In this document: positions 29,952 to 61,434 of the stretch, piece by piece
Numbering within the stretch: the first letter of the stretch is position 1
Layout of the letters: every line of letters starts with the position of its first letter
Source of the DNA: a virus
Reading direction: 5' to 3' (one strand)
DNA: 64,000 nucleotides
Virus record (IMG/VR): IMGVR_UViG_3300042564_002458
Coordinates: 56,922 to 120,921 of that record
Made by a program: the position numbers and the translations under genes
The notes under the pieces: generated by a model
Databases searched by the model: none
The model's input: the letters and a program-made list of their open reading frames with translations, nothing else
What the model was told of the DNA's origin: nothing

Positions 29952-30063
29952 TTTACTTCTCCTTAATGTTTTCAAAAACAATATACATTATCACATATAA
30001 TGTAATATAATACAAGTTTTTTGGTATAATGACTAGTATTTAGTTATTATAATTGAGATTAAA

Positions 30064-41175: not shown

Positions 41176-41176
41176 T

Positions 41177-41929: not shown

Positions 41930-41938
41930 AGTTATTCC

Positions 41939-42748
41939 TTATTTTTTAAAATTCCAGTGTCCCTTTTTGACACCTTCATTAATTGTTCCTACGACTGCCG
42001 CTTGTATAGCGAGAGCGGTGGCACGATTAATACTTTCATTGATACTGGCTCCAGTTTCTGCTTCAATTGCCTGTGTTCCATTATCAACAAATTTCAATAC
42101 TCCGAGTTTGTCCATATAACTTAATACTGTCTTGGTTACCGTTACGGAAGTTAGTATTTCCCCTGTAGCTACTGATACTGTTCTGAGTGTTACGGTTACT
42201 GTGTCACTTTGATATTGAGTGCTGGCTCCAATACCAAATAATCTTAATCCACTACCACCAGTTATTAAATTACTATCATAACCAACAATAGCACCCTCAA
42301 TAATAATTCCAGCAAACATCATTGGTGGTAATGTTTTTGCATCACGACCTTGATATTGTTCGCGCATTTGTCTAATCATTTGTCTTTCTTTGATTAAATT
42401 TTCTAAACCCACTCGTTCTAATACCGTAAACCAACGACCATTACCTACATCTTGTAATGCTTTAATTAAATAACTATCTCCACCTTGAGTGACGGCTGAA
42501 CTTAAACTGGCAATATTTGGAACACTTTTACGCTGACCGGTTTTATCCATAAATCCATAAACTGCCACAGTTATTGGCCCACTTTCTGGAGGTTCTACTT
42601 GAAAATTGTCTCTAGTAAATACTGTTTCTTTTTCTATAATAGGGTCATCAAATTGTCTTCCAGTCATTTTTTCTCTGAGAAAACTACTAGTGGCACAAGA
42701 AGATAACATTAACCCTGTTAGTATCAAGGATAAGATTTTTATTATCAT
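41939..42748 (-). CDS. csgG: CsgG curli secretion pore lipoprotein
   Basis: 269 residues, close to bacterial CsgG. Lipobox MLSSCATS (Cys about 18). Motifs: VAVYGFMDKTGQRKS, GGDSYLIKALQDVGNGRWFTVLERVGLENLIKERQ (the region after the pore constriction start) and LPPMMFAGIIIEGAIVGYDSN. It forms a nonameric outer-membrane channel for curlin. Follows csgF by nine bases. Confidence 0.94.
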   Translation of the reverse strand: MIIKILSLILTGLMLSSCATSSFLREKMTGRQFDDPIIEKETVFTRDNFQVEPPESGPITVAVYGFMDKTGQRKSVPNIASLSSAVTQGGDSYLIKALQDVGNGRWFTVLERVGLENLIKERQMIRQMREQYQGRDAKTLPPMMFAGIIIEGAIVGYDSNLITGGSGLRLFGIGASTQYQSDTVTVTLRTVSVATGEILTSVTVTKTVLSYMDKLGVLKFVDNGTQAIEAETGASINESINRATALAIQAAVVGTINEGVKKGHWNFKK

Positions 42749-42757
42749 TTTTTATCC

Positions 42758-43237
42758 TTAAAAAGCAAAAGTACCAGCCGGCACTTTCATAGTGGTAACT
42801 TGATTGGCATTAGTTAAACTAATAATACTAATTATTATCATTCCACGATCACTACCATCACCTAATTTCCAAGTGATTGAATTTCCACCCAGATCCGGAA
42901 TAGTTCCACAAACAATACCGGCTTGTGTGCAAGTTGCACCTTCACCAAACATACTATCGGTGAGTTGTTTTGCCAATTGTGAATATATTCTACTTTCTAA
43001 ATTGGCAATAAATCTTGCCTGCGGGGTATCTTTTGCCGCGGCTTCGATTTTTGCTTTTAGAGCCTCGGACGCAGCAGTGTTTTTATCCTTGGCTTGATCT
43101 TCAAGTTGTTTGATTGTCAGTATGTGCGAACTATAACCAATTCCACCAAATGCCGGACTATTAAAATTAAAATTTAATTCCCCAGAATTAGCAGCAAAAC
43201 AAGTTACGAACAGCACACTTATTATTATTGTTTTCAT
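42758..43237 (-). CDS. csgF: CsgF curli assembly factor
   Basis: 159 residues. Signal peptide (MKTIIISVLFVTCFAANSGE) and a mature N-terminus ELNFNFNSPAFGG, which is the CsgF segment that plugs into the CsgG pore. The C-terminal beta domain follows. Longer than E. coli CsgF (138). First gene of the curli operon, with its start codon inside a possible hairpin. Confidence 0.9.
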   Translation of the reverse strand: MKTIIISVLFVTCFAANSGELNFNFNSPAFGGIGYSSHILTIKQLEDQAKDKNTAASEALKAKIEAAAKDTPQARFIANLESRIYSQLAKQLTDSMFGEGATCTQAGIVCGTIPDLGGNSITWKLGDGSDRGMIIISIISLTNANQVTTMKVPAGTFAF

Positions 43238-43295
43238 ACTGTTCCCTAGCTAGTCATCTTAAGATGACCCGACTATTAGTATTTAGAACAGTATG
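43235..43295 (-). promoter_or_regulatory. Nested inverted repeats over the curli operon start
   Basis: Minus strand CATACTGTTC (43295-43286) can pair perfectly with GAACAGTATG (43244-43235), which holds the csgF ATG. Inside lies a perfect 16-bp palindrome (43253-43268). A start-masking mRNA structure or an operator pair are both possible. Confidence 0.6.
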
Positions 43296-43309
43296 TACAA
43301 AAGATATGT

Positions 43310-43331
43310 GATACTATATTGTGTAGTATCG
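43310..43331 (-). terminator. Hairpin between 43340-43780 and the curli operon
   Basis: 7-bp stem gatacta/tagtatc with a seven-base loop at about 43311-43331; the downstream sequence has a weak TTTTG run. Weak terminator or protective hairpin. Confidence 0.4.
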
Positions 43332-43339
43332 TAAAATGA

Positions 43340-43780
43340 TTAATCAATAAATTCGTAACTAAGTTTTAGTGCCTCATGTAATTGACTAGTATTAACATCG
43401 TGTTCTTTATAACCCTCAAGTAAACATTGCCAATAATTCACTGATGGGGGCGAAAATGAATCTTTACTAGTCATAGTATACACCCAACTATCATATATTT
43501 TATTTTGATATAAAATAGGAACAATGATTCTGGTATAATAAGTTGGATATCCCTCTAGACGATCCAAACTGTCTAAACATTCATCAGTGATTTCCCATAA
43601 TACACCATTGGTTTTTGATCCTGATTTTGACACCACATCGGCGTGAATATTGAATTTAAATTGATAGTCAAATAATAAAGCGAAACCTAAACTAACGGAA
43701 TCTGGACAGCGATATGTCATCTCAGATTTATTAGTGTTCATTCCATATGCAAAATAGTAATATTTCTTTTTATTATTCAT
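43340..43780 (-). CDS. Gamma-glutamylcyclotransferase-like (AIG2/GGCT) protein
   Basis: 146 residues from the ATG at 43780 (TGATG overlap with the gene above). YYFAYGMNTNKSEM is the substrate-binding loop and LDRLEGYPTYYTRI the region with the catalytic Glu. It may cleave gamma-glutamyl amino acids or related amines. Common in phages; substrate unknown. Confidence 0.78.
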   Translation of the reverse strand: MNNKKKYYYFAYGMNTNKSEMTYRCPDSVSLGFALLFDYQFKFNIHADVVSKSGSKTNGVLWEITDECLDSLDRLEGYPTYYTRIIVPILYQNKIYDSWVYTMTSKDSFSPPSVNYWQCLLEGYKEHDVNTSQLHEALKLSYEFID

Positions 43781-43992
43781 CACCAATCACTCTCATCCGA
43801 AATGATAACAGTAAATTCACCTTCTTCGTCTTTATGAGTAACGATAAAGGTAGCAATTAATACTGACCCAATACCATTACTATTTTTCTGTGATAGCGTT
43901 ACGCTACCATGATCTCCACTCTCGTTCAGTTGATTGAACAGAGCATACAGTCGTTCAACTTCTCTATGATTCATAGTAATTGTTTTCATCAT
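43780..43992 (-). CDS. Small protein of unknown function
   Basis: 70 residues: a helical start (NHREVERLYALFNQLNESG) and beta-rich rest ending in acidic DESDW. ATGA and TGATG overlaps with neighbours. No family recognised. Confidence 0.6.
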   Translation of the reverse strand: MMKTITMNHREVERLYALFNQLNESGDHGSVTLSQKNSNGIGSVLIATFIVTHKDEEGEFTVIISDESDW

Positions 43993-44228
43993 TCAATTCC
44001 GAAATATTTAAGTATAACCTCTTGAGATGAGGTGTCATGCGTCAGTGCCCAATGTTCAAAAGCAATATTGCCACATTCTTTCACAATCAACTCGGCGAAC
44101 TTTTGATTGACAATATTTGTAAGTTCATCTTCTTCGTATACCGGTCCACGATTTCTACGCCGATTATTATAGTCATCTTGGCCAAATTGTGCAGCCTGTT
44201 TGTATAGTTCCTTAATTCGTTCGTTCAT
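43989..44228 (-). CDS. MNE/FAELIVxEC-family small protein
   Basis: 79 residues: MNERIKELYKQAAQFG start, KFAELIVKECGNI core, LKYFGIE end. Function unknown. Confidence 0.7.
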   Translation of the reverse strand: MNERIKELYKQAAQFGQDDYNNRRRNRGPVYEEDELTNIVNQKFAELIVKECGNIAFEHWALTHDTSSQEVILKYFGIE

Positions 44229-44231
44229 TCT

Positions 44232-44465
44232 TCAACTCCTGCAATTCATCCATCTGATTTCGTCGGCACATAATCTTGCGCCAAACTGTTTGTCACCACC
44301 GTTGCTTTCTCTAACAACGTCACACCTTTGAGCACATTCCTCCACAAGCAACTCAGCGAACCTGTCAGCAAACTTTGTCAAGTCTTGCATGTCCATTACA
44401 GACCATGTGCATGCAAATCTCTCATCTAGAGCTTGCCCCATCAGTAGTTTAATTTGTTCGTTCAT
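44232..44465 (-). CDS. MNE/FAELIVxEC-family small protein
   Basis: 77 residues: MNEQIKLLMGQAL start, RFAELLVEECAQRCD core; the usual HFG end is replaced by RWMNCRS. ATGA overlap with 44462-44581. Function unknown. Confidence 0.68.
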   Translation of the reverse strand: MNEQIKLLMGQALDERFACTWSVMDMQDLTKFADRFAELLVEECAQRCDVVRESNGGDKQFGARLCADEIRWMNCRS

Positions 44466-44581
44466 TTAAAAAGCCATCCTTTTAATTGAATTACCAATCC
44501 ATCTGAGTATTCAGCACGGATTGTACAAGTGCCCAACAATGCCAAATACAGTACAGTCCACGTAATTGTTCTAATTATCAT
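44462..44581 (-). CDS. 39-residue secreted or membrane miniprotein
   Basis: Reads MIIRTITWTVLYLALLGTC and then a short polar end. It looks like a signal peptide or lipobox (LLGTC). ATGA overlaps with both neighbours strongly support a coupled gene. Confidence 0.58.
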   Translation of the reverse strand: MIIRTITWTVLYLALLGTCTIRAEYSDGLVIQLKGWLFK

Positions 44582-44784
44582 TCTTGTACTCCGAAATGTT
44601 GTTTAATCTTATTGGCAATAATAGCACCCATGTCATCTTCTCTATGACTAGATCCTAGAGCAAGGTCTATACATTTGTAAGCAATCAATTCGGCGAACTT
44701 TTCCATATTATTGGGTAGTCCTATAGCCAAATAATCTTTTGAGTATCCAGCCTGTTCAGCAAGTTCTCGAATTCGTTCGTTCAT
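44578..44784 (-). CDS. MNE/FAELIVxEC-family small protein
   Basis: 68 residues: MNERIRELAEQAGY start, KFAELIAYKCIDL core, IKQHFGVQE end. Function unknown. Confidence 0.7.
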   Translation of the reverse strand: MNERIRELAEQAGYSKDYLAIGLPNNMEKFAELIAYKCIDLALGSSHREDDMGAIIANKIKQHFGVQE

Positions 44785-44793
44785 TTTATTTCC

Positions 44794-45057
44794 TTAAAAT
44801 ATAGCATTTGAGTCTCGTTTTTTTATGGCTCTACATACTGGGCCAAGCGCAGAGTAATAGACTATACGAGCCGATGTGGAATGAATTCCAAACTCTTGCC
44901 CGATCTCTTTGAAAGTCATATCGTGAAATACGCGACAAACGAAAACATCAATTCTTAGCTGTCTTGTTTTTTCAAATTTAGTACTTTTAATAATTGCATC
45001 TAAGGCAATTTTAGATATTTCATGTTGATAGACCGTCATTTCTGAATCAGTTAACAT
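44794..45057 (-). CDS. Sigma-region-4-like HTH protein
   Basis: 87 residues. RVFHDMTFKEIGQEFGIHSTSARIVYYSAL is a helix-turn-helix like the -35-binding region 4 of sigma factors or a small terminase/regulator HTH. It may control phage transcription. Follows the GIY-YIG gene by nine bases. Confidence 0.65.
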   Translation of the reverse strand: MLTDSEMTVYQHEISKIALDAIIKSTKFEKTRQLRIDVFVCRVFHDMTFKEIGQEFGIHSTSARIVYYSALGPVCRAIKKRDSNAIF

Positions 45058-45066
45058 AAATTATTC

Positions 45067-45390
45067 TTAAAATGTATTGAGTGTTGAGTTATATTTACGA
45101 ATCAATTCTCGCTCACGAGTATGTGCCGCTAAACGACCACGTACACTTTCTACAAATCCGTATGTAAAACTTTCGGATCCATAATCACGAATACTAGTAG
45201 ACAATGACCAACCTTTGTCTTCGGTCAAGGCGCGTTGTACATGTTTTTGAATGCGGCGCTTGAGTGTTTTTTGAATTCCACCCACATTCTTGACAGTGAT
45301 TCCTATATACTGATCACCAGTCACTATGTTGTTAATAACATAGATCAAGTGAGTACAATCGTTTCGGCGTTTTCTTGTTTTCGTCATCAT
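45067..45390 (-). CDS. GIY-YIG nuclease
   Basis: 107 residues covering one GIY-YIG domain: HLIYVINNIVTGDQYIGITV (the two strand motifs), LKRRIQKHV (Arg) and a late ERELIRKYN (Glu). No DNA-binding extension is seen, so it may be a free-standing homing or repair nuclease. Own promoter at 45397-45425. Confidence 0.8.
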   Translation of the reverse strand: MMTKTRKRRNDCTHLIYVINNIVTGDQYIGITVKNVGGIQKTLKRRIQKHVQRALTEDKGWSLSTSIRDYGSESFTYGFVESVRGRLAAHTRERELIRKYNSTLNTF

Positions 45391-45396
45391 AAGTAC

Positions 45397-45425
45397 ATTA
45401 TAGACTATAATGGATTTATTGTCAA
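45397..45425 (-). promoter_or_regulatory. Sigma70-type promoter
   Basis: Minus strand: -35 TTGACA (45425-45420), 17-base spacer, -10 TATAAT (45402-45397); TTGACAATAAATC core. Confidence 0.82.
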
Positions 45426-45444
45426 ATTAAGAGTATTTTAGTGT

Positions 45445-45464
45445 TGTATTAAAACAACACATTG
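45445..45464. terminator. Short hairpin in the gap after 45543-45767
   Basis: 7-bp stem gtgttgt/acaacac with a six-base loop just before the 45425 promoter. Similar tgttgta/tacaaca hairpins lie at 21881 and 63550, also beside promoters. Confidence 0.4.
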
Positions 45465-45542
45465 ACACAGCGATTTTGAGCGAGTTTTTTGAGATTTTAA
45501 CACTCAACTACACTATATTAATTTAAATGGCTCTGGTGACGG

Positions 45543-45767
45543 CTAAATCAATCTGATTATTAGTCCATGAGCGTAAATTATCATCATAACTACATTAACA
45601 GCCAATATACTATACTCACGAATTCTTAGTGACCAAATGATCCAAAATACACTACCGACATTTAGCAAATATAAATTAAGTGGGTCAAGTTTATAGCTAA
45701 TAGCTAACGCTCCCAAGATGGTTAAAATCGTGGCAGTCCATTTTAAAAAGTTGTTTAATTTTATCAT
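45543..45767 (-). CDS. Small polytopic membrane protein
   Basis: 74 residues with two or three hydrophobic segments (WTATILTILGALAISY, LYLLNVGSVFWIIWSL, ILAVNVVMMIIYAHGLII). Resembles the short transporter-like membrane proteins seen in phages. Own promoter at 45774-45802. Confidence 0.62.
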   Translation of the reverse strand: MIKLNNFLKWTATILTILGALAISYKLDPLNLYLLNVGSVFWIIWSLRIREYSILAVNVVMMIIYAHGLIIRLI

Positions 45768-45773
45768 AGACTG

Positions 45774-45802
45774 ATTATATTATAAACTAGATTTATTGTC
45801 AA
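45774..45802 (-). promoter_or_regulatory. Sigma70-type promoter
   Basis: Minus strand: -35 TTGACA (45802-45797), 17-base spacer, -10 TATAAT (45779-45774); TTGACAATAAATC core. Confidence 0.8.
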
Positions 45803-45870
45803 GTAAATTTAAGTGACAATATATTATAGTTATTTTTTATATCACTATCATAAGTAAATAATAGTTCATT

Positions 45871-45878
45871 GATAAATA
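45871..45878 (+). promoter_or_regulatory. Late-promoter-like octamer at a leaderless start
   Basis: GATAAATA ends five bases before the ATG at 45884, and no ribosome site is present. Confidence 0.5.
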
Positions 45879-45883
45879 AAAAT

Positions 45884-46633
45884 ATGATTACTATACACGA
45901 TTTATATACAGATCATTTATTATTATTATCGGCGAAACAACCTAATAAAAATTGGGCAGAATCCGACTCAGAATCATTATATAAAGAAAATCTTAAAACA
46001 CAATCGGAAGATTGGTATTATCGAACACATTCAATTACATATAAACACAACTCGAACAAATACAGATGTGCTGAATGGAATGATATAACTTGGAGTAATA
46101 GTTGGATTGTATTAGGATGTTCTAGTGTAGAAGGTATTGGTCTGGATGAATCTGACGTATTATCTACCAGACTTTCTGAACTATTAGATAGTCCTGTAAT
46201 AAATTTAGGTGTAGGCGGAACTGGAGCAGATGTTACATTGTTTAATAGTATACGATTAATTGATAAAAATATAAGACCAAAAGGAGTAATTATAATAAAT
46301 GGCGATTTTACATTAACTCGGCTTTCATTATTTACATCGAGAGGATCAATAGCCATTGGAAATTGGAGTTTTGATAAAAAAATAAATCAAGGAAAATTTT
46401 CAAATTTGTATTCATTATGGACCAATGAAGCAGGACACTCAGAAACATATTCTTATATGTGTCTTAGAGGAGCAATTTCCATGTGGAAGACTGAAAACAT
46501 ACCAACATTTTATTTCAATATTGAACGAGATTTACCTAAAAAAAGTGACTTAGCAAGAGATTTGTCACATTGGGGTAGAGAAACAATAAAATTGTGGGCA
46601 AGGTCTATTGTAAACACAATTATAATTCAGTAG
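45884..46633 (+). CDS. SGNH-hydrolase-like protein
   Basis: 249 residues from the ATG at 45884; a TTG at 45869 lies inside the octamer. WIVLGCSSVEGIGLDES is a GDS-like block I with Ser, NLGVGGTGADV block II, IIINGDF block III, and RDLSHWGRETIKLWA the C-terminal Asp/His. Similar in layout to 51853-52548. Lone + strand gene between leftward genes; substrate unknown. Confidence 0.7.
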   Translation: MITIHDLYTDHLLLLSAKQPNKNWAESDSESLYKENLKTQSEDWYYRTHSITYKHNSNKYRCAEWNDITWSNSWIVLGCSSVEGIGLDESDVLSTRLSELLDSPVINLGVGGTGADVTLFNSIRLIDKNIRPKGVIIINGDFTLTRLSLFTSRGSIAIGNWSFDKKINQGKFSNLYSLWTNEAGHSETYSYMCLRGAISMWKTENIPTFYFNIERDLPKKSDLARDLSHWGRETIKLWARSIVNTIIIQ

Positions 46634-46666
46634 ATATTTTTAAATTGATCTATTATAAATACAAAA

Positions 46667-46692
46667 AGCCCCAAACCGTTAGGAATGGGGCT
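46667..46692 (-). terminator. Intrinsic terminator for the YkuK-like gene
   Basis: 6-bp stem agcccc (46667-46672) with ggggct (46687-46692), followed by TTTTTG on the minus strand. Lies between convergent genes. Confidence 0.75.
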
Positions 46693-46704
46693 ATAATTAA
46701 ATTG

Positions 46705-47196
46705 TTAGGCTGCCATTTGACGTTGATATTCTGTCAATGATTTGAATCTGTCTGCCGCATAACTGGCAGCAAATGCCTGTGGTTTAACCAATGGTATAAC
46801 CCCACACATTCCTTTGATATATCCCATGGCTTCGTTTACTACGATACTACTATTATGAGCCTCATTTGGATTTATATCTAGATGAACTTCAATATCATGA
46901 GCAACAACTTTACTCAATTTAAGATACAAATCCGCAATTTTATAAACTTCTGTCATTAGACGCATACGTGGTTTATTAGATTGTTGATCATAGTCACGTT
47001 CTCTATTAACGGCACCAAAAATCTTACATCCGTTATTGCCATTAACATGTACTACAACTGCGGTAATATAGTCGGCGTACCAGATATCATTTAATTGAAA
47101 ACGTTCACTATCACACCCAATATAAATCTTGGTGTCTGTGTCACAAGTTTCCAGAAATGCTACTACTTCGTCTATATCTATTTGTTTCTTATACAT
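46705..47196 (-). CDS. RNase H-fold protein, YkuK-like
   Basis: 163 residues. KIYIGCDSERFQLNDIWYADYITAVVVH is the first strand set with an RNase H-type Asp, EVHLDINPNEAHNSSIVVNEAMGYIKG a further acidic set. Matches the YkuK/DUF458 group of RNase H-like proteins, also present in T4-like phages. Nuclease activity is plausible but not shown. Followed by a terminator. Confidence 0.78.
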   Translation of the reverse strand: MYKKQIDIDEVVAFLETCDTDTKIYIGCDSERFQLNDIWYADYITAVVVHVNGNNGCKIFGAVNRERDYDQQSNKPRMRLMTEVYKIADLYLKLSKVVAHDIEVHLDINPNEAHNSSIVVNEAMGYIKGMCGVIPLVKPQAFAASYAADRFKSLTEYQRQMAA

Positions 47197-47202
47197 GATA
47201 CT

Positions 47203-47472
47203 CTACCTTTTATGTTTGTTAAAACCTCTATTCTTTTTCTGTGATCTATTTAAAGCCTTAAATAAATAATCCCGTTTGACTAATCCACTTTCAATATCAG
47301 CAACTGCCTGATGTACTGGAATCAACTTTTTTTTATATTCACCTAAAATATAAAGTCCAGATTCTGCATATTTACTATATCGAATTTCTTTAATTTCTTT
47401 GGTTCGTGCAGCTCCCATCAATACTGATTCATAAAGATTAATACTTGTACCAATTACGCTATCATTTTTCAT
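47203..47472 (-). CDS. RNA polymerase omega-subunit-like protein
   Basis: 89 residues from the ATG at 47472, after AGGAAACAAT; the longer frame from 47550 has no ribosome site. NLYESVLMGAARTKEI resembles the omega N-terminal helix (RFELVLVASRRARQ), and PVHQAVADIESGLVKRDYL resembles the conserved TVIALREIAEGLVTRDI. A phage omega could replace the host one and reshape RNA polymerase. Family call is by eye. Confidence 0.65.
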   Translation of the reverse strand: MKNDSVIGTSINLYESVLMGAARTKEIKEIRYSKYAESGLYILGEYKKKLIPVHQAVADIESGLVKRDYLFKALNRSQKKNRGFNKHKR

Positions 47473-47497
47473 ATTGTTTCCTAGTTTTAAAATATAA

Positions 47498-47767
47498 TTA
47501 TAAGCATTGTAATGTAAACCACGTGGCATATTCGCCACGTTTAAATGCAAATTGTTTTACCCCAGATTTATTTGGATTAGATGTAATTCTGGAAATCCAA
47601 TCATCTTTACAAAGTCGTTTTCTACACCATTCTGATAATTCACGATAATGTAATTCATTTCCAAATTCATCTGAATAAATGTCTTGAGATTTGTAAAGAT
47701 TAGTTCTGGGAACATCAATTACTGTCCATCCTTGTCTAATATAATATCTAAATCCTCGTTGATTCAT
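47498..47767 (-). CDS. LKW-related small protein
   Basis: 89 residues with LSEWCRKRLCKDDW and a degenerate end TWFTLQCL, so a diverged LKW-family member. It lies nine bases after the gene 47777-48343. Function unknown. Confidence 0.6.
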   Translation of the reverse strand: MNQRGFRYYIRQGWTVIDVPRTNLYKSQDIYSDEFGNELHYRELSEWCRKRLCKDDWISRITSNPNKSGVKQFAFKRGEYATWFTLQCL

Positions 47768-47776
47768 ATATTTCCT

Positions 47777-48343
47777 TTAATTGTCTTCTAAATTATCTAC
47801 TACAATCCAACCTAATTTTAGTAAATCTGTTCTAATTTCATCAGTAACTACACTTTCTGAAACATACTCACGATTATCTTCATCTAGTTCGGGTATGTAT
47901 CCATCTAACCCGTAACCATCTTCTTGACTACCAATACCGCTACAGTACCAATCAATGTAATCACCTTCTTGTTTCATATTGGAAATGATTCCACCAGCAC
48001 TACGCCAGCTGGCTGACCAATAATTTTCTTTTAAGATTTGAATTACATCTTCTTTTATAAAATCATTATTACATATTGCGGCATAAAGATTTTGAGCATA
48101 GTTATCGCTATTTCTAACTTTTGCTAGAATCCAATCTGTGGTTCTTAAATCCCACTCCATATTATTCTTTTGCCATTCTGGATCAGATTCATGTTCAAGA
48201 TCAAGTTTATCCCAACTTTCATACAAATCTATCATACTTTTAACATTTGAATCAGTCATACTTTTACCGTTCTCTATAACACGTTTAATATAATTTTTTT
48301 TTTGAAATGTATTTCTTTCTGGACTTTTGCTAAGATTATTCAT
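47777..48343 (-). CDS. Unknown protein
   Basis: 188 residues, acidic, Trp-rich (NNMEWDLRTTDWILAKV, NYWSASWRSAGGIIS). No motif recognised. Transcribed after tRNA-Val. Confidence 0.62.
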   Translation of the reverse strand: MNNLSKSPERNTFQKKNYIKRVIENGKSMTDSNVKSMIDLYESWDKLDLEHESDPEWQKNNMEWDLRTTDWILAKVRNSDNYAQNLYAAICNNDFIKEDVIQILKENYWSASWRSAGGIISNMKQEGDYIDWYCSGIGSQEDGYGLDGYIPELDEDNREYVSESVVTDEIRTDLLKLGWIVVDNLEDN

Positions 48344-48360
48344 AGTTAAACTTTATAAAA

Positions 48361-48435
48361 TGGTGGATCGTGACGGGTTCGAACCGCCGACTTTTTCCGT
48401 GTAAAGGAAACCTTCTACCGCTGAATTAACGATCC
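48361..48435 (-). tRNA. tRNA-Val (UAC)
   Basis: 75 bases with CCA encoded. Acceptor GGATCGT/ACGATCC, anticodon loop TTTACAC (UAC), T-loop TTCGAAC. Reads GUA and probably other Val codons. Confidence 0.93.
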
Positions 48436-48442
48436 AAAAGTT

Positions 48443-48688
48443 TTACAGATAAATAAATGTCATTACAATTCCAAGTAGTAATAATAAAACTGTAAAAATT
48501 GTAAGTGTAATTTCTAATAATTTGGGAAATTTTGATGACTCAAAAACCTCTTCAATTTCACTTGGTTTTGGAATATTATCAATTTCAATATTTGACTTTG
48601 GTAAATCATTAACAGAATTATTTTGATAATGATTTACAAAAACAATTACTACTAAAACTAATAAAATTATAATTAAAATTGGTGACAT
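48443..48688 (-). CDS. Small two-helix membrane protein
   Basis: 81 residues with a helix at each end (ILIIILLVLVVIVFVNHY and LEITLTIFTVLLLLLGIVM) and an acidic middle. Lies between tRNA-Leu and tRNA-Val. Function unknown. Confidence 0.6.
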   Translation of the reverse strand: MSPILIIILLVLVVIVFVNHYQNNSVNDLPKSNIEIDNIPKPSEIEEVFESSKFPKLLEITLTIFTVLLLLLGIVMTFIYL

Positions 48689-48707
48689 ATTATTTCCTTT
48701 TAAATAA

Positions 48708-48792
48708 TGGTACGAGAGACGGGACTTGAACCCGTAATCCTTGCGGCGACAGATTTTAAGTCTGTTGTGTATACCAATTCCACCACTCTCGC
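48708..48792 (-). tRNA. tRNA-Leu (UAA)
   Basis: 85 bases with CCA and a long variable arm. Acceptor GCGAGAG, anticodon loop CTTAAAA (UAA), T-loop TTCAAGT. Confidence 0.93.
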
Positions 48793-48801
48793 ATTTAATC
48801 T

Positions 48802-48942
48802 TTACCGTCTATCTCCTGGATTACAGGTGACATTGTACATACTACCCTGATATAATGTTTTCTGCCAACAAACTTGACCACGAGGTCCCATTACACAGCC
48901 AGATAACATTACAATCATGACAACTAATAGTGTCTGTTTCAT
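48802..48942 (-). CDS. 46-residue lipoprotein
   Basis: Reads MKQTLLVVMIVMLSGCVMG at the start: signal peptide plus lipobox LSGC (Cys 16). The short mature part has two Cys (QVCWQKTLY and NVTCNPGD). Lies between tRNA-Arg and tRNA-Leu. Function unknown; perhaps superinfection exclusion. Confidence 0.62.
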   Translation of the reverse strand: MKQTLLVVMIVMLSGCVMGPRGQVCWQKTLYQGSMYNVTCNPGDRR

Positions 48943-48999
48943 ATTAATTTATCTCAATTAAAACAATATAATAAATTTAACTTTTTTCTAATGTAAAAA

Positions 49000-49074
49000 T
49001 GGTCCGGCGACCAGGAATCGAACCTGGATTAATAGCTTAGAAGGCTACTGTTCTATCCGTTGAACTATCGCCAG
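49000..49074 (-). tRNA. tRNA-Arg (UCU)
   Basis: 75 bases with CCA. Acceptor CTGGCGA/TCGCCGG (one G-U), anticodon loop CTTCTAA (UCU), T-loop TTCGATT. Reads AGA, a codon favoured in AT-rich genomes. Confidence 0.92.
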
Positions 49075-49081
49075 ATATTAA

Positions 49082-49534
49082 TTAATACTTTGAAGTTGAA
49101 AACTTTTTCAAATGAATTAAGTCAGACGGTGAGACCGCAGACTCTTTGACAACTGCTGATTGATTAATGGGAATTAAATATCGTTCTGTACCATCCTTTA
49201 CTATATCATGATTATAGATCATGATTTTTGGATCAACTTTATAAATCCATCCATCAGATGAATGTTTATAACGATGATGAGGTACAGAGACAAAGTAAAT
49301 AAAATCAACATTCAAACATTTTTTAAGTTGAGATTTAGGAATAGTAAATGAATTTTTCAGTACATATGGATTTTGAGTTTTTACCTCAATTTTAAGTCCA
49401 TTAGCCATAAAATCTTTTTCTGAATCAAATTTATCTACTGAATGAGATATTGTTTGTCCAAGAGAACTAAGATAGTTAATAACTACTTTTTCTCCCGCTA
49501 ATCCTAATTCTCCAGATTTGTCAATATAAGCCAT
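49082..49534 (-). CDS. PD-(D/E)XK-like nuclease
   Basis: 150 residues from the ATG at 49534; the longer frame overlaps a tRNA. GLAGEKVVINYLSSLG resembles the N-terminal helix with Glu, and SEKDFMANGLKIEVKTQ supplies D...ExK. Looks like a small restriction-like or repair nuclease. Substrate unknown. Confidence 0.68.
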   Translation of the reverse strand: MAYIDKSGELGLAGEKVVINYLSSLGQTISHSVDKFDSEKDFMANGLKIEVKTQNPYVLKNSFTIPKSQLKKCLNVDFIYFVSVPHHRYKHSSDGWIYKVDPKIMIYNHDIVKDGTERYLIPINQSAVVKESAVSPSDLIHLKKFSTSKY

Positions 49535-49555
49535 AATTACCCTAATAATATTAAA

Positions 49556-49632
49556 TGGTGCCCCCACCTGGACTCGAACCAGGGACCAAAGGATTATGAG
49601 TCCTCTGCTCTAACCAACTGAGCTACAGGGGC
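49556..49632 (-). tRNA. tRNA with CAU anticodon (Ile2 or Met)
   Basis: 77 bases with CCA. Acceptor GCCCCTG/TGGGGGC, anticodon arm GAGGACTCATAATCCTT (CAU). The body resembles tRNA-Ile2, where lysidine turns the anticodon to read AUA, but elongator Met cannot be excluded by eye. Own promoter at 49663-49691. Confidence 0.9.
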
Positions 49633-49662
49633 ATTTCTGTCAATCTTTCATTCTAAGATACT

Positions 49663-49691
49663 ATTATACAACATTATTGATTTATTGTCAA
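49663..49691 (-). promoter_or_regulatory. Sigma70-type promoter for the tRNA/nuclease genes
   Basis: Minus strand: -35 TTGACA (49691-49686), 17-base spacer, -10 TATAAT (49668-49663); TTGACAATAAATC core. Transcript would start about 25 bases before tRNA-CAU. Confidence 0.83.
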
Positions 49692-49753
49692 GTATTATAT
49701 ATCCAAATTGTAGAATATTCTTTGTCAAGAATTACATTTAATGAGATTTTTTG

Positions 49754-50239
49754 TTAATTTTCTACTACACCGACTAGATGAAGTCGATGTTGATCAGAAC
49801 AATTTATAAATGTATGAGATTTAGTTGTATCAACTTTCCATACATATCCTTTTTTTAAATTTGTAAGTTGTCCAGTACGAAAAAGAAAATAGCATTCTGG
49901 ATTGGTTATTAATGGAATATGAATTCTAGAAGTATCATCTTTGTGTATACTATAACACGCATACGGTCCAACCCACATTAGTCTAGTTCTAAGTAGTTTG
50001 TATTTGTCAATTAATTCTTCAAATATAGTATTTTTAAAAAAAGGATTTAAATTAGTATATGAAAGTTCCTCTCCTTTACTTTTTCCGACTGCACTGGTCC
50101 ACGGATCTTCATTATCTTTATATTGCAATCCTGTTTGTTTACCTTTATGTTCATAATCGGTCCATTGCATATTAAGTTCTAACAAATTGTATGAATCTAA
50201 TACTAGTTGGTAGTTTATTGTTTCTAAAATTTTTATCAT
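49754..50239 (-). CDS. Aspartyl/asparaginyl hydroxylase-like 2OG oxygenase (operon gene 9)
   Basis: 161 residues from the ATG at 50239 (ATGA overlap). CYSIHKDDTSRIHIPLI gives HxD; KKGYVWKVDTTKSHTFINCSDQHRLHLVG gives the GxxWxxD...H...N...R signature of the Asp_Arg_Hydrox group. Last gene of the nine-gene operon. Substrate unknown. Confidence 0.78.
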   Translation of the reverse strand: MIKILETINYQLVLDSYNLLELNMQWTDYEHKGKQTGLQYKDNEDPWTSAVGKSKGEELSYTNLNPFFKNTIFEELIDKYKLLRTRLMWVGPYACYSIHKDDTSRIHIPLITNPECYFLFRTGQLTNLKKGYVWKVDTTKSHTFINCSDQHRLHLVGVVEN

Positions 50240-50727
50240 GATAATATTATATTGGCCGCCTGATCTTCTGTAATATAGTCTGTTGTTGTAAAATGAGGGT
50301 ACTTTTTTAGAATCTTTTCTGTACCTACATATGCAAACCATTTGTATTTAACCCTACATATCCCACTTACCCGATTACTCATTTCTTTTAATATAAGTTT
50401 TTCTGCCTGATATTTTAGTAAATCTTGTCTATCTTTTGGTAACAGTTTTATATCTGCTATTCTACTACCTACATTAATTATTGTCTTATTTTTATCTTTC
50501 CACTCATGAAAAATTTCTAAAAATAATAATGTTTGTCCAAACTCTGATGTTGCATTATTAATAAAAACATCACAATCATATGATTCTTCGATAATTCGGC
50601 GTCTATCAGTGATATTAGTTATATCGTAACCCGTAGATAAACTAAATCCTATAGCATCAGGAGTTAGTCTTTCATATAATCGTTTGCCAATACCGGCTGT
50701 GTGTCCTGTAATTGCATAAGTTGTCAT
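50236..50727 (-). CDS. Short-chain dehydrogenase/reductase (operon gene 8)
   Basis: 163 residues, shorter than typical SDRs (about 250). TGHTAGIGKRLYERL is the Rossmann TGxxxGIG, CDVFINNATS the NNA motif, and LLKYQAEKLILKEMS the YxxxK catalytic pair. Likely an NAD(P)H-dependent reductase acting on a product of the operon oxygenases. ATGA overlaps on both sides. Confidence 0.8.
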   Translation of the reverse strand: MTTYAITGHTAGIGKRLYERLTPDAIGFSLSTGYDITNITDRRRIIEESYDCDVFINNATSEFGQTLLFLEIFHEWKDKNKTIINVGSRIADIKLLPKDRQDLLKYQAEKLILKEMSNRVSGICRVKYKWFAYVGTEKILKKYPHFTTTDYITEDQAANIILS

Positions 50728-51332
50728 TCTTTAAACCTCAATGTTATTCCTAATTTCTCACCATTCATTTTAGATGTGCAATGTATTTTTTTATTATTAA
50801 AGATTATCATACTTCCAGGCTCAAATGGATATGCAGTACCCGATAATTCGGATAGTGCATGCTTTGGATAGTGCGATAGATAATCATTATATAAAGTTTC
50901 GTTTATTGATTTTCCGGTTTTATTTGTAATAGGATATTCATGAGGATAACCTTTTACACCTATATTTGTTGAAAAATACATTACGGGTTTTTGCATACAC
51001 CAAGTAACACTATCTTGTTCCCACTCTTGATCAAATATTATTAAACTGGTTCGTGATCCAGTATACATCAACGGTATCACAACATTTATAGTATTGTCCT
51101 GATAGGTTTTATAATCAGTATGTGGTAAGTATGGAATAGAGTGTTTATAAAAATTTCCACTTTTGTAAACTAGTTGTTTATCTAATATTCGTTCTATGAT
51201 AGGAGTAAATAATTCAAGACTACTACCAGGTGAGGTCTTGTTCATTGTATTGGTGTCATACAAGTTTCTACTATTATAATCATTAATAGCAGTATTAATC
51301 AACTCTTGAGAAACTATATTATTGTATATCAT
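50724..51332 (-). CDS. 2OG-Fe(II) oxygenase-like protein (operon gene 7)
   Basis: 202 residues. IPYLPHTDYKTYQDNTINVVIPLM gives HxD, and IIFNNKKIHCTSKMNGEKLGITLRF gives the distal His and Arg. ATGA overlaps. Substrate unknown. Confidence 0.72.
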   Translation of the reverse strand: MIYNNIVSQELINTAINDYNSRNLYDTNTMNKTSPGSSLELFTPIIERILDKQLVYKSGNFYKHSIPYLPHTDYKTYQDNTINVVIPLMYTGSRTSLIIFDQEWEQDSVTWCMQKPVMYFSTNIGVKGYPHEYPITNKTGKSINETLYNDYLSHYPKHALSELSGTAYPFEPGSMIIFNNKKIHCTSKMNGEKLGITLRFKE

Positions 51333-51856
51333 ATTGTATCAGGCGGGTTTTCAAGAAAAACAGTTAACATAATTCGTATAATTTTCGATTTAAGTAATAT
51401 TATATTATGTGGGTGCGATGGATCGAACAATAACGGTTTATCTAAAATGTAGTAATCTATCAATTTACAGTTTTTAATATTAACTGTATAATACGATAAT
51501 ACTTTAGTATTTGATTTTATTAATAGTTCATCTGGCACTTTTTCAAAACAATTTGTTTTTGCAAATTCAGAATTTAATATTGGAAAATTTAGTCTTATTC
51601 CAGGAGTAAAATCAACATGAGGATTCATATATGAATTATGAGATTTAACAAAACACAAACCTGATTTGTATTTCAAATTATAAATGCTCATAAACTCTAA
51701 CAATTCTGAGCAATGAGTTTTTATTTCTTCTAAACTAAACCAACAACTACCATTTTTCATAGCACTAATTTTATGAAATGTATCAAAAATATATAATAAC
51801 TTCTTAGATATAATTTCTATATTGTTACATTCTAGGTATCTAAATGGGGTACTCAT
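51329..51856 (-). CDS. 2OG-Fe(II) oxygenase-like protein (operon gene 6)
   Basis: 175 residues. NPHVDFTPGIRLNFPI gives HxD, and PSHPHNIILLKSKIIRIML the distal His and Arg. Part of the ATGA-coupled operon. Substrate unknown. Confidence 0.7.
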   Translation of the reverse strand: MSTPFRYLECNNIEIISKKLLYIFDTFHKISAMKNGSCWFSLEEIKTHCSELLEFMSIYNLKYKSGLCFVKSHNSYMNPHVDFTPGIRLNFPILNSEFAKTNCFEKVPDELLIKSNTKVLSYYTVNIKNCKLIDYYILDKPLLFDPSHPHNIILLKSKIIRIMLTVFLENPPDTI

Positions 51857-52548
51857 AATATTTTTAAAATTATTTCTGCTAGATTTTGATGAGATTTTTC
51901 TCCCATATGTCTACCGTCAGTCCCAAAATCTATATTTTGAATATTAATAATATCTGGAAAAATATTATCATGATCTCCTAATTTAATCTCGGTGAAATTT
52001 ATTTTTTGCACATTCAAAAACTCCAGAAGTTCTAGTCTAGATTTAGTGCTTCGCTGACCTATTTTATCTATGTTACTAGTATAGATTGATTGCAGTTCAT
52101 ACTCTCTTTTCCATAAATTGTGTCTAAAATTTTTATCAATAACCCAAGGACCCAAATGATACAATTCTTGATCTCTGATATGATACATTCTAGTATCTGG
52201 GTAGCTCCACTGTACTATAACATGATTTGGTTTAATCGTGAAGTTGCGACACCATTCTTGAATATTCATGCTAATAAAGTCACACCCACTACCTGAGATA
52301 CTAATATTGTATACAGGAATTCCTAAGGAATTCTGTAATACACTACTGTAGGTTTTTTCTAGACGAACAGATTCTCCTTCGCTCTGACTGCACCCACATA
52401 CTAAAATGTAATCAGAAATAATAGATTCTATGGGAATAGTTCGATGATATTCGCTGTTCATTTCTGATCGATGAATCCCATTATAACTATCTAGTTTTTC
52501 ATATCTAGAATCTCCATAACAATAATTATATTTTCTATAACTTATCAT
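51853..52548 (-). CDS. SGNH-hydrolase-like protein (operon gene 5)
   Basis: 231 residues. YILVCGCSQSEGESVRLEK is a GDS-like block I, ISISGSGCDF block II, VIVQWSYPDTRMY block III position, and NIDFGTDGRHMGEKSH the Asp/His block V. Relative of 45884-46633. In the operon it could remove or transfer an acyl group. ATGA overlaps. Confidence 0.7.
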   Translation of the reverse strand: MISYRKYNYCYGDSRYEKLDSYNGIHRSEMNSEYHRTIPIESIISDYILVCGCSQSEGESVRLEKTYSSVLQNSLGIPVYNISISGSGCDFISMNIQEWCRNFTIKPNHVIVQWSYPDTRMYHIRDQELYHLGPWVIDKNFRHNLWKREYELQSIYTSNIDKIGQRSTKSRLELLEFLNVQKINFTEIKLGDHDNIFPDIINIQNIDFGTDGRHMGEKSHQNLAEIILKIL

Positions 52549-53021
52549 ACTCCATGATCCTGACAGTATTTTTTTACAGTCTCATAATCATAATCGTTAA
52601 ATCCTATGCTCAATAGATATCTAATGTTATTACCGTTTCTAACGGCGTGTTTCTTATGTGTGTTTAATAAGTAATATTGATCTAGTTCATACTTTAACTC
52701 AGTAACATTTTCAATAACTTCTTCATTATCAGTTTGATCACCATAATAGCAATTACTATTAAATCCAGTTAGTAACAAATTAATAGCACATTGTCTACGC
52801 TCATCAGTATGAAATCTGTAAAATGTATTTGATATCATTTTAAAAACAATTGCATTTCCATTAAATTTAAATTTAATTTTTAATAACAATGTATCTAATA
52901 AATTGTTAGGAATTTTAAGTATATTAAATCCGTTACTGGAAAACCATTGATCGCTAGACTCAACATAATTGAGTATATCTGATCTACCTGTACTAACAGT
53001 GTTTAATTGATAGTAATTCAT
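52545..53021 (-). CDS. 2OG-Fe(II) oxygenase-like protein (operon gene 4)
   Basis: 158 residues. FYRFHTDERRQCAINLLL gives HxD, and LLNTHKKHAVRNGNNIRYLLSIGF the distal His and Arg. ATGA overlaps. Substrate unknown. Confidence 0.72.
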   Translation of the reverse strand: MNYYQLNTVSTGRSDILNYVESSDQWFSSNGFNILKIPNNLLDTLLLKIKFKFNGNAIVFKMISNTFYRFHTDERRQCAINLLLTGFNSNCYYGDQTDNEEVIENVTELKYELDQYYLLNTHKKHAVRNGNNIRYLLSIGFNDYDYETVKKYCQDHGV

Positions 53022-53581
53022 TCTATAATATTTTTAAAATATTCTTTGAGATTAAAAGTACTTACATCGATTGGATCAAAACACAAACTTATAATTGTTC
53101 TCAACTGACCATCAATCTGACCTGTAACTCCGTGCCATGATGGATTTACATGTATTAAATGCCATCTTTTTTCTTCAATTTTATGTTCTTCCACTACAGT
53201 AGTCTTATCATCCGAGTACCAACTAGTAACTGGACCAGGTCCACCAAGAGTTAAAATATAATTAAACGCATATTTTCGTCCGTAGTCTATATGAATGGGA
53301 TGTACGCCTTTTCCTTGACTATGTTCAATATATTTGTTAATATGTAACATCATCTTATTTATTAATTCTGGATGTTGAGAATCAGGATCTATTATAGATA
53401 TAATGTTTTGTTTAATCCAATCTTTAATCTCAGATGGCAAATAAGTTATACTATGACTAATCCCTTCTTTTTTGTTTAATTCTATTAGTCTATTATCAAT
53501 CCAACTTAATGGAATTAAATTCAAACATCTCTGTTCAAATTCGACTGGCAGTTTTGGCAAGTTTACGTAAGTAAAATTCAT
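53018..53581 (-). CDS. 2OG-Fe(II) oxygenase-like protein (operon gene 3)
   Basis: 187 residues. GVHPIHIDYGRKYAFNYIL gives HxD, and NPSWHGVTGQIDGQLRTIISL the distal His and Arg. ATGA overlaps. Substrate unknown. Confidence 0.74.
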   Translation of the reverse strand: MNFTYVNLPKLPVEFEQRCLNLIPLSWIDNRLIELNKKEGISHSITYLPSEIKDWIKQNIISIIDPDSQHPELINKMMLHINKYIEHSQGKGVHPIHIDYGRKYAFNYILTLGGPGPVTSWYSDDKTTVVEEHKIEEKRWHLIHVNPSWHGVTGQIDGQLRTIISLCFDPIDVSTFNLKEYFKNIIE

Positions 53582-54108
53582 GTTAAAAGATATATAGGAT
53601 CATGATCAAACCCTATTGTTAATGAAATTCGTGGTGTCTGATTACCTATTGTTATTTTATGAAATTCATTAACACGAATTATAGTGGGACATGTCAATTC
53701 TACACGATCAACTAGTTCTATAATTGCATCATGTTCTGGTAATTTTATTGTATATCTATCATTGGTGTAAAATCTTGTTTTACTAACGGTATAATATTCA
53801 GTATAACTGTTTTCACAATTTAAAATTGGTATGTTTATTCTTGCTTGAAATTTACTATTGTCCGAGTGAAGACTACCTTGATCATTATTATATGTAACGT
53901 AAAATGCTGTTGAAATGACATTGAGATTTATCTTTCTAAAACAATCATTAATTAGCTTTCTATTATCATTATAAAAATCTGAGACTTCACAAAAAGATAA
54001 TCCTTTTTTTCTTTCATATATTACTGTATTATTTTTAAGATACTCCAACGCATTACTTTGAATATATTGCCAGTTTGGAATACTGTTTAATTTCAGATAA
54101 TATTTCAT
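53578..54108 (-). CDS. 2OG-Fe(II) oxygenase-like protein (operon gene 2)
   Basis: 176 residues from the ATG at 54108 (ATGA overlap with the radical SAM gene; a TTG at 54120 is in frame). GSLHSDNSKFQARINIPIL gives HxD, and RVNEFHKITIGNQTPRISLTIGF the distal His and Arg. Substrate unknown. Confidence 0.72.
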   Translation of the reverse strand: MKYYLKLNSIPNWQYIQSNALEYLKNNTVIYERKKGLSFCEVSDFYNDNRKLINDCFRKINLNVISTAFYVTYNNDQGSLHSDNSKFQARINIPILNCENSYTEYYTVSKTRFYTNDRYTIKLPEHDAIIELVDRVELTCPTIIRVNEFHKITIGNQTPRISLTIGFDHDPIYLLT

Positions 54109-55127
54109 ATGTTCATCCAATTAAACAGTTTGGTAGATAATCCTACAGTATTCCACTGAGTATCACTTTTTATTGCCCAGTTTCTAAATACAGATAAAAA
54201 TTCATCTGAATTTGTACCAGTAGCAAATGGTATAGATTGCCAATCAGAAATCTGTTCTATTATTCGTCGTGGGAATTTTAACATATTACAATGATCTGGG
54301 TATACAATAGGAAAACTACTAAACGAATGATGTTTACTCCAATATTCATTCGCCGTATGATAGTTTTGAAATGTAAATGGTGTTATAGCATAGTTGATAG
54401 ACAAGTTAGTATGTTCGGTCAATACTTGTATATTATTCAACAACTCTGTCCAACTTGATCCTCTTCTGAACCATTCGTAAGTATCTTCAAATCCATCAAC
54501 ACTTACACTACATTTAATTTCGCGCCACCCTTCCCATAAGTCAATACGAGGTTTAATTAATCCATTTGTAATGTATTGTATTTCACAATGACTACGATCA
54601 ACATGTTTTAATCTATCAAGTAGTTTCCAATGATCTGGGTCTAAGAACGGTTCTCCACCACTAAATTTTAATACAGTGATATTTGGTAATAATTCAATGA
54701 GTTCTTCAACAAATTTATCAGTAATTTCAAATGATACTTTAACATGTGGAGTTATGTTTAATACTTTTGCCCAAGTACTACTACGATCAGGACCACAGTG
54801 AGCACATGCCAGCTGACACTTGTTGCTCATTTTAAATTGTAGAACTTTTAATTCTCTAGAGTTACTGATAAATGAAGTTGACATTCGCATACTAGTTTGA
54901 TTGTTAACTTCAAGTTGTTCACATCTACCGCAAGAATTTCTAGTTTTTTCTGAATACCCATTGATGAGATTATTTCGTAAATATAAGAGACGATGATGAT
55001 TAAACGCATTTTTAATACCATCTTGTATAGGAGTAATTTTTGCTAGATCAGATGTTTCTAAACAGCAAGGACGTGTCCATCCGTCTGTTTCGATGCTCAT
55101 CATATTTTCTATCCACGCACATTTCAT
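54105..55127 (-). CDS. Twitch-type radical SAM protein (operon gene 1)
   Basis: 340 residues. The radical SAM cluster site is NKCQLACAHCGP (CxxxCxxC, about 106-113), with FSGGEPFLDPDHW (the GGE motif) and ITNGLI after it. The N-terminal part has a second Cys set, RPCCLETSD and NSCGRCEQLE, as in SPASM/twitch enzymes, for an extra Fe-S cluster. Such enzymes often modify peptides or other small substrates. First gene of the operon; the phage IscU/IscA could supply its clusters (inference). Confidence 0.88.
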   Translation of the reverse strand: MKCAWIENMMSIETDGWTRPCCLETSDLAKITPIQDGIKNAFNHHRLLYLRNNLINGYSEKTRNSCGRCEQLEVNNQTSMRMSTSFISNSRELKVLQFKMSNKCQLACAHCGPDRSSTWAKVLNITPHVKVSFEITDKFVEELIELLPNITVLKFSGGEPFLDPDHWKLLDRLKHVDRSHCEIQYITNGLIKPRIDLWEGWREIKCSVSVDGFEDTYEWFRRGSSWTELLNNIQVLTEHTNLSINYAITPFTFQNYHTANEYWSKHHSFSSFPIVYPDHCNMLKFPRRIIEQISDWQSIPFATGTNSDEFLSVFRNWAIKSDTQWNTVGLSTKLFNWMNI

Positions 55128-55163
55128 ATCATTTTTTCTTCAGTAATATTCATTGTCTAGTGA

Positions 55164-55171
55164 TATTTATC
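55164..55171 (-). promoter_or_regulatory. Late-promoter-like octamer for the radical SAM operon
   Basis: Minus strand GATAAATA followed by TCACTAG, 36 bases before the ATG, with GAAG as a weak ribosome site. The 15-base string is shared with 16566-16573. Confidence 0.5.
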
Positions 55172-60732: not shown

Positions 60733-61434
60733 TTATGGTGTCCAACGAATAGACAAATCAGAGTATTTTTCTGCTGATTGTACTATCAAATCTTTCACGG
60801 AAGAAGACATCTTATCTGATTTCATTTCGGTAATTATTAATACTGCTAATCTTATGGAATTAGGTCTATCAACATTTACAGTATGTATTGCTCTAACATT
60901 ATTAAGATAAAATCCATTCTGAGATTTTAAAATTTTAGCTGAATATATAATATCTTGTACTTTGGGAGTAATACCATTTTCTGGTATTTTACCTAATTCT
61001 TCTCTAGATTGATATTTTGTCTTGGTAGGTTTAATTAATAAAAAATCTCTATCAATTTCATCATTTTCAAGATATAATCTTAATCCAATCTCATCAGGAT
61101 CAGCATGCCAATAGGTTGAACCAACATAATCTGATTTCATTGGAAGTAATACCGCGGCCATTAATTCTGATTCTTGTAATGAAAACGCAGAATAAAAATA
61201 TTCTGCCAATTCTGGAAAATTTTTATCAAAATCTTCTAACCAGTTTCCATTTTTTCTGGCATAAACAATATCCCAAGGATAGATATCTTCTACGGTAATT
61301 TTACTACCATCAGCACGATCTTGTATCTTTTGAATTTGATTTTTTTTAAACCAATCATTTAGTTTTGATCTATCAAATACAGGGACAGGTTTAACATCTA
61401 TTGGAGTGTAAAGAATATCTAAAATATCAGTCAT
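60733..61434 (-). CDS. 2OG-Fe(II) oxygenase-like protein
   Basis: 233 residues. GSTYWHADPDEIGLRLYLEN gives HxD, and NNVRAIHTVNVDRPNSIRLAVL the distal His and Arg. I recall relatives in T4-like phages. It follows the structured RNA region; an AATAAATA octamer lies at 61465-61472 and AAAGGTAGTC before the ATG. Substrate unknown. Confidence 0.75.
   Translation of the reverse strand: MTDILDILYTPIDVKPVPVFDRSKLNDWFKKNQIQKIQDRADGSKITVEDIYPWDIVYARKNGNWLEDFDKNFPELAEYFYSAFSLQESELMAAVLLPMKSDYVGSTYWHADPDEIGLRLYLENDEIDRDFLLIKPTKTKYQSREELGKIPENGITPKVQDIIYSAKILKSQNGFYLNNVRAIHTVNVDRPNSIRLAVLIITEMKSDKMSSSVKDLIVQSAEKYSDLSIRWTP

Follow-up and report, generated by a model that had tools for sequence, protein, structure and literature searches.

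The DNA described here is a window of 64,000 nucleotides, corresponding to positions 56922-120921 of the 120,921-base IMG/VR virus record IMGVR_UViG_3300042564_002458 (hereafter the 120.9-kb record). On its minus strand, surrounded by 13 tRNA genes, nine small genes named A to I encode a radical S-adenosylmethionine (SAM) enzyme (A), six putative oxygenases (B, C, D, F, G and I), an SGNH-type enzyme (E) and a short-chain dehydrogenase/reductase (SDR; H) (Table 1). An initial annotation, made from the letters alone, had proposed that they form a single ATGA-coupled operon. This description holds: the nine frames are intact, and all eight junctions from A to I are four-base ATGA stop/start overlaps. 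In the whole window, with longest-ORF starts assumed, only 14 of 88 adjacent minus-strand open reading frame (ORF) pairs overlap by four bases, so that eight consecutive junctions of this kind are not expected by chance. A nine-codon leader ORF precedes A. Its length and its ATGA overlap are kept in the near relatives L001 and L002, where it reads MNITERNLI, which suggests a role in coupling. In addition, an independently assembled contig (L105; 99.94% identity across window 40757-51165) spans one end of the operon and thereby confirms I, H and most of G. The exact nine-gene order is known from this record only, while parts of it recur elsewhere.

Table 1. Coordinates of the operon, its putative control elements and related oxygenase genes in the window.
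Feature	Position	Strand	Basis
GATAAATA, T4-late-promoter-like motif	55164-55171	minus	about 40 bases upstream of A
Leader ORF, 9 codons (MNITEEKMI)	55124-55153	minus	ATGA overlap with the radical SAM start
Operon A-I	49754-55127	minus	nine intact ORFs
A, radical SAM with N-terminal twitch domain, 340 aa	54105-55127	minus	Pfam, NF033640, conserved Cys
B, HxD...H oxygenase, Asp_Arg_Hydrox-related superfamily, 176 aa	53578-54108	minus	iterated profiles
C, HxD...H oxygenase, Asp_Arg_Hydrox-related superfamily, 187 aa	53018-53581	minus	iterated profiles
D, HxD...H oxygenase, Asp_Arg_Hydrox-related superfamily, 158 aa	52545-53021	minus	iterated profiles
E, SGNH/GDSL-type hydrolase or acyltransferase, 231 aa	51853-52548	minus	conserved residues, profile
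F, HxD...H oxygenase, Asp_Arg_Hydrox-related superfamily, 175 aa	51329-51856	minus	iterated profiles, predicted fold
G, oxygenase of second DSBH family, 202 aa	50724-51332	minus	predicted fold, conserved residues
H, short SDR-type reductase/dehydrogenase, 163 aa	50236-50727	minus	conserved SDR motifs
I, Asp_Arg_Hydrox oxygenase, Cpz10-like, 161 aa	49754-50239	minus	Pfam, profile match
Extra oxygenases outside the operon	26908-27561, 27571-28161		profile-supported
Possible extra oxygenase	60733-61434		motif only: HxD, later H and R

All six putative oxygenases carry the HxD...H motif, which is invariant or nearly so in the alignments of their relatives. The iron triad together with a distal Arg or Lys, the signature of 2-oxoglutarate (2OG)/Fe(II) oxygenases, was found in all six alignments. 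H97, D99 and H150 are invariant in the C family, as are H71, D73 and H125 in the D family, with R135 nearly invariant. The F family has invariant H80 and H150 and nearly invariant D82 and R161, and in the G family H71, D73, H184 and K193 are invariant. On iterated profile search, B, C, D, F and I join into one superfamily, and G represents another double-stranded beta-helix (DSBH) family; the six different folds first proposed thus reduce to these two groups. Structure prediction, one of the checks that the initial annotation had suggested, gave a DSBH for F (AlphaFold2, pLDDT 92) and for G (pLDDT 95.5), the remaining four (B, C, D and I) being assigned this fold solely through homology. Foldseek matches of both models are mostly 2OG oxygenases: AndA, proline 3-hydroxylase and ASPH for F (E about 1e-4), and AndA, SnoN, WelO5 and P4H for G (best E 2e-6). 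Profile searches of the PDB with the F-type and G alignments returned nothing useful. A PHROG match of G to "endonuclease V" (1.5e-4) was rejected as a probable misannotation, the predicted fold being a DSBH. The three additional oxygenases announced elsewhere in the window fared unequally, since two are supported by profiles and the third has the motif without a profile match.

Pfam recognizes little of this superfamily. I passes the gathering threshold of PF05118 (Asp_Arg_Hydrox; 31.6 versus 22.6 bits) and is the only one filed as a member; B, C, D and F gave no PF05118 match in the Pfam search, and one of 46 F-type sequences matches that family, weakly. The closest solved relatives of I include L-proline cis-4-hydroxylase and, at 4e-24, Cpz10 (PDB 7v4f), the beta-hydroxylase of biosynthesis of the nucleoside antibiotic caprazamycin (PMC9814697). 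I can be aligned with Cpz10 along most of its length: H99, D101, H142 and R152 correspond to the iron triad and the 2OG arginine, and H107 and H154 to the auxiliary His pair. By sequence and active-site match, I is classed as Cpz10-like, after an enzyme type that hydroxylates an amino-acid side chain borne on a glycyluridine scaffold. It differs from Cpz10 in being phage-encoded within a radical SAM/SDR operon, with no nucleoside-antibiotic scaffold genes recognized nearby.

A matches Pfam Radical_SAM at 1e-12 and the NCBIfam model NF033640 (N_Twi_rSAM) at 167.4 bits (E 5e-49), below the curated cut-off of 170. All 39 members of its alignment match this model at E<=1e-5 (best 1.7e-118), and we classify A from these scores as a divergent relative of NF033640 rather than a formal member. 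In the 39 sequences, C3, C21, C66 and C69 of the twitch domain, C104, C108 and C111 of the CxxxCxxC motif, and GGEP are invariant. Positions 4-74 of the A profile match the twitch domain of the radical SAM dehydrogenase BtrN (PDB 4m7t; 1.4e-8), and the profile also matches cytosylglucuronate decarboxylase and the peptide maturase SkfB. The four-cysteine twitch domain is common to A and BtrN; however, it is C-terminal to the radical SAM core in BtrN and N-terminal in A, and the match does not imply aminocyclitol activity for A.

In the E family, S54 and H214 are invariant, consistent with a catalytic Ser and the C-terminal DxxH motif of SGNH enzymes, and the profile matches GDSL esterase and TesA structures with values down to 4.5e-7. 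In the H family (23 sequences), T7, G8, Y106 and K110, the last two forming YxxxK, are invariant and G12 nearly so. Eleven of the 23 members match adh_short (best 1.9e-41), whereas H of the window has no Pfam match; a PDB profile search with the small H alignment gave nothing useful. Overall, profiles, conserved catalytic residues and predicted folds agree with the enzyme classes initially assigned to the operon (radical SAM, oxygenase, SGNH and SDR). Outside the operon, a second SGNH-family gene (window 45869-46633, plus strand; profile match 2e-77) is conserved in the near relative L013.

The motif GATAAATA upstream of A resembles the T4 late promoter TATAAATA and is kept in L001 and L002. 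The radical SAM genes of L004 and L133, which are leading genes too, also have ATAAATA upstream. Among leading genes, ATAAATA lies within about 120 bases upstream in 37 of 110 cases for the cassette and in 26 of 58 for the "vocabulary"; the corresponding counts are 134 of 717 for all other leading genes and 14 of 375 for cassette genes in internal position. Fisher tests against the other leading genes gave p values of 6e-4 (cassette) and 1e-5 (vocabulary), counting as independent loci that are not fully so. This distribution suggests that the operon is expressed late in infection. At several loci (e.g. L015, L022, L116, L119, L143 and L145) the motif starts 11-14 bases before the start codon, a spacing that would yield almost leaderless late messages.

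The six operon genes shared with L001 have dN/dS values of 0.14-0.20 (C, 0.19; D, 0.20), indicative of purifying selection. Scans of IMG/VR with A, H and I gave, after removal of near-identical entries and counting the window itself, 119 loci that hold parts of the cassette, reshuffled. The initial annotation had named a gene order found nowhere else and decayed frames as grounds for doubt; the synteny search it had called for shows instead that the order partly recurs, and the frames are intact. Each of the seven non-redundant loci found with A has oxygenases of both the G and the Asp_Arg_Hydrox type; an SDR accompanies them in six loci, one of these SDRs being distant. Gene order varies, with A-G-H-I contiguous in some loci and C-D-A or A-C-D in others. 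Recurrent neighbours are fatty-acid desaturases (36 loci), a second radical SAM family (25 loci), PP-loop ATPases, pyridoxal phosphate (PLP) enzymes and GNATs, together with sulfotransferase-, TauD-, methyltransferase- and carbamoyltransferase-like genes, these last four labels coming from sequence reading only.

Direct evidence for how such loci change comes from L013, which is about 82-99% identical to the window across aligned DNA stretches. There, B is substituted by a different oxygenase, F is exactly deleted with the ATGA retained, and a sulfotransferase-like gene in opposite orientation stands in place of H. The unit of change is therefore one enzyme. Swapping of this precision argues for exchangeable decorating steps rather than for the several successive steps that the initial annotation had suggested.

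A pattern search of bacterial genomes based on the radical SAM alignment returned no match. A scan with I yielded chromosomal homologs, the majority from SAR11 and others from Kiloniella; in all three inspected loci (L190 and L228 of SAR11, L240 of Kiloniella) the gene is solitary, without the cassette. The SAR11 homologs of L190 and L228 lie between hemB-like and rpiB/glyA-like genes.

We propose, with moderate confidence, that the operon encodes a late, modular and exchangeable tailoring pathway for a small molecule or conjugate. That the genes form a compact pathway of biosynthesis or modification, as the initial annotation had already put forward, gains support from the catalytic residues, predicted folds, purifying selection and recurrence. 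Small-molecule tailoring is preferred because small molecules are the substrates of the nearest relatives of I with solved structures and of some of those of A, and because the recurring partner genes are those of natural-product tailoring. The T4-like late promoter would drive one message of nine cistrons coupled by the ATGA overlaps. Their products would act as a tailoring line, and the molecule or conjugate that they modify would be small and probably derived from an amino acid, a sugar or a nucleotide. Its core would consist of the twitch radical SAM enzyme A, the oxygenase G, the SDR H and the Cpz10-like hydroxylase I; A may carry out radical dehydrogenation, epimerisation or bond formation, and H may oxidise or reduce the new alcohol or carbonyl. 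The peripheral oxygenases B, C, D and F, with the SGNH enzyme E, would add or remove groups, and gene-by-gene swaps would alter the final decoration. The operon would be one exchangeable island in an extensive family of such clusters in phages. The sequences themselves show the enzyme families with their catalytic residues, the coupling of the operon, purifying selection, and both the recurrence and the swapping of its genes; we infer the late timing (from the promoter motif only), a substrate shared by the nine enzymes, the order of steps and the chemistry of the product.

Several observations weigh against this proposal. Neither a carrier protein (PF00550) nor an Asn-synthase-like ligase (PF00733) was found in the 120.9-kb record, which may be incomplete and in which the controls matched, and no precursor or scaffold gene is recognizable in the operon; the starting molecule would therefore have to be supplied by the host or by genes that lie beyond the record. 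Proteins and lipids, too, are modified by enzymes with Asp_Arg_Hydrox and P4H-like folds. The TM-scores of the fold matches of F and G, near 0.5, do not suffice to name a substrate, and the late-type motif is a sequence feature rather than an expression measurement. Finally, when a collection of isolate phages was searched with A, C, G, H and I, the I query returned only a distant homolog, in Pelagibacter phage Mosig (36%); relatives of the radical SAM enzyme A were found at no more than 26% identity, in Vibrio phages, and C, G and H had no match.

The main rival to small-molecule tailoring is the decoration of a cell-surface or virion glycan (unusual sugars, lipopolysaccharide (LPS) or capsule), which would block superinfection or coat the particle. 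Such a role is suggested by the L004 cassette, which by sequence reading adjoins genes for a PfkB-like sugar kinase, a HIGH nucleotidyltransferase, an NAD epimerase and a cupin isomerase-like protein, by the two NAD epimerases and the cytidylyltransferase-like gene of the record itself, and by the interpretation given to published cyanophage clusters of similar make-up (PMC7824862). However, a search of the 120.9-kb record for GT1, GT2 and GT8 glycosyltransferases, in which the controls matched, was negative, late-type promoter motifs suit superinfection exclusion less well, and none of the closest solved relatives is an LPS enzyme; we consider glycan decoration rather unlikely. Radical SAM enzymes and hydroxylases could also modify a ribosomal peptide or a virion protein, in the manner of ribosomally synthesized and post-translationally modified peptides (RiPPs). 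The A core does score against the peptide maturases SkfB, PapB and YhhB, and Asp_Arg_Hydrox enzymes are known to hydroxylate Asp and Asn in proteins. Yet the gapless operon, preceded by just the 9-codon leader, has no room for a precursor peptide gene, a vocabulary of SDR, SGNH, PLP, desaturase and carbamoyltransferase genes is atypical of RiPP systems, and BtrN, to which the A profile matches in its N-terminal part, acts on a small molecule, which makes a RiPP-like function improbable.

Hypermodification of nucleic acid, either a phage DNA base or a phage tRNA, has a similarly low probability in our judgement. 2OG oxygenases and radical SAM enzymes do act in known base-modification systems, and the operon sits among tRNA genes, but the searches made point to the Asp_Arg_Hydrox and P4H/WelO5-like families and not to TET/JBP or AlkB, and cassette relatives often adjoin sugar, desaturase or PLP genes. 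It has also been hypothesized for T4-like cyanophages that such oxygenases merely consume 2OG or tune host nitrogen metabolism (PMC3037559). Many copies of one fold would fit this idea, but it requires neither conserved radical SAM, SDR and SGNH partners nor mutually diverged oxygenases under purifying selection, and we regard it as very improbable here.

The aquatic virus is classified as T4-like from its gene content, with a family B DNA polymerase, from the UvsX- and gp32-like genes that lie beside cassette relatives, and from the promoter motif; a search for the Gp23 capsid protein gave no match, nor did its controls. A Porin_4-type porin (window 28812-29981) has plasmid matches of about 30% identity, the majority from Burkholderiales; it may point to a betaproteobacterial host, which we take only as a lead. 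An OmpA-family protein is encoded at window 28245-28796. A curli-type operon (window 41177-43237) contains CsgG (2.4e-48) and CsgF (8e-10), and its third protein has a marginal curlin-repeat match (7.5e-4, just under the cut-off). In PMC7029224, pelagimyophage curli operons are reported without recognized CsgA or CsgB, and a curlin-like subunit in a phage curli operon would be of interest given that report. A 684-aa protein with CHASE2 and adenylate/guanylate cyclase domains (window 35185-37239), which has a similar gene in the relative L005, possibly serves cyclic-nucleotide signalling. A ClpX-like ATPase and two ORFs that are ClpP-like as judged solely from their sequence are listed together at window 16501-17721, 11155-11745 and 11833-12456. 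A DAO-type FAD oxidoreductase and two NAD epimerase/dehydratases are also present (window 22333-23547; 9472-10293; L186:9463-10428). A perfect sigma-70 consensus (TTGACA-17-TATAAT; window 49663-49691, minus strand) lies between the operon end and a tRNA-Met gene (49556-49632).

Parts of this make-up have been described in other phages: T4-like cyanophages carry multiple 2OG oxygenases (PMC3037559), 12 radical SAM genes are present in one T4-like marine genome (PMC5332604), and cyanophage clusters have been interpreted as secondary-metabolite or capsule systems (PMC7824862). The last, from jumbo cyanophages, are likewise phage-borne and combine several 2OG oxygenases (2OGFeDO) with halogenase and carbamoyltransferase genes; carbamoyltransferase-like genes occur in some cassette relatives as well, whereas the present operon has no recognized halogenase or carbamoyltransferase and is marked by its twitch radical SAM/G/SDR core. 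Pelagimyophages are also T4-like and aquatic and gained radical SAM cassettes in a hypervariable region; the accessible text of that report (PMC7029224) lists an Asp/Asn beta-hydroxylase as core and describes no oxygenase-rich coupled operon. Phage biosynthetic gene clusters (Dragos et al. 2021) are similarly of biosynthetic type and phage-carried; as cited in PMC10452541 they are rare, and they differ from the present operon with its lack of a recognizable precursor or scaffold gene. In view of the jumbo cyanophage clusters and the pelagimyophage cassettes, the initial statement that no known phage pathway has this make-up was too strong. A search of the open-licence literature revealed neither the coupled operon nor its core.

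More broadly, and tentatively, T4-like lytic phages may carry a widespread combinatorial system in which 2OG oxygenases, swapped around a radical SAM/G/SDR core, yield new small molecules or virion decorations late in infection. The locus exposes a large oxygenase superfamily that Pfam hardly detects, and its nine small enzymes are defined targets for work in vitro. The question of why T4-like aquatic phages hold so many 2OG oxygenases thereby becomes testable. If the proposal is correct, widespread aquatic phages would carry out a multi-step oxidative biosynthesis of their own, whose product changes fast through gene swaps.

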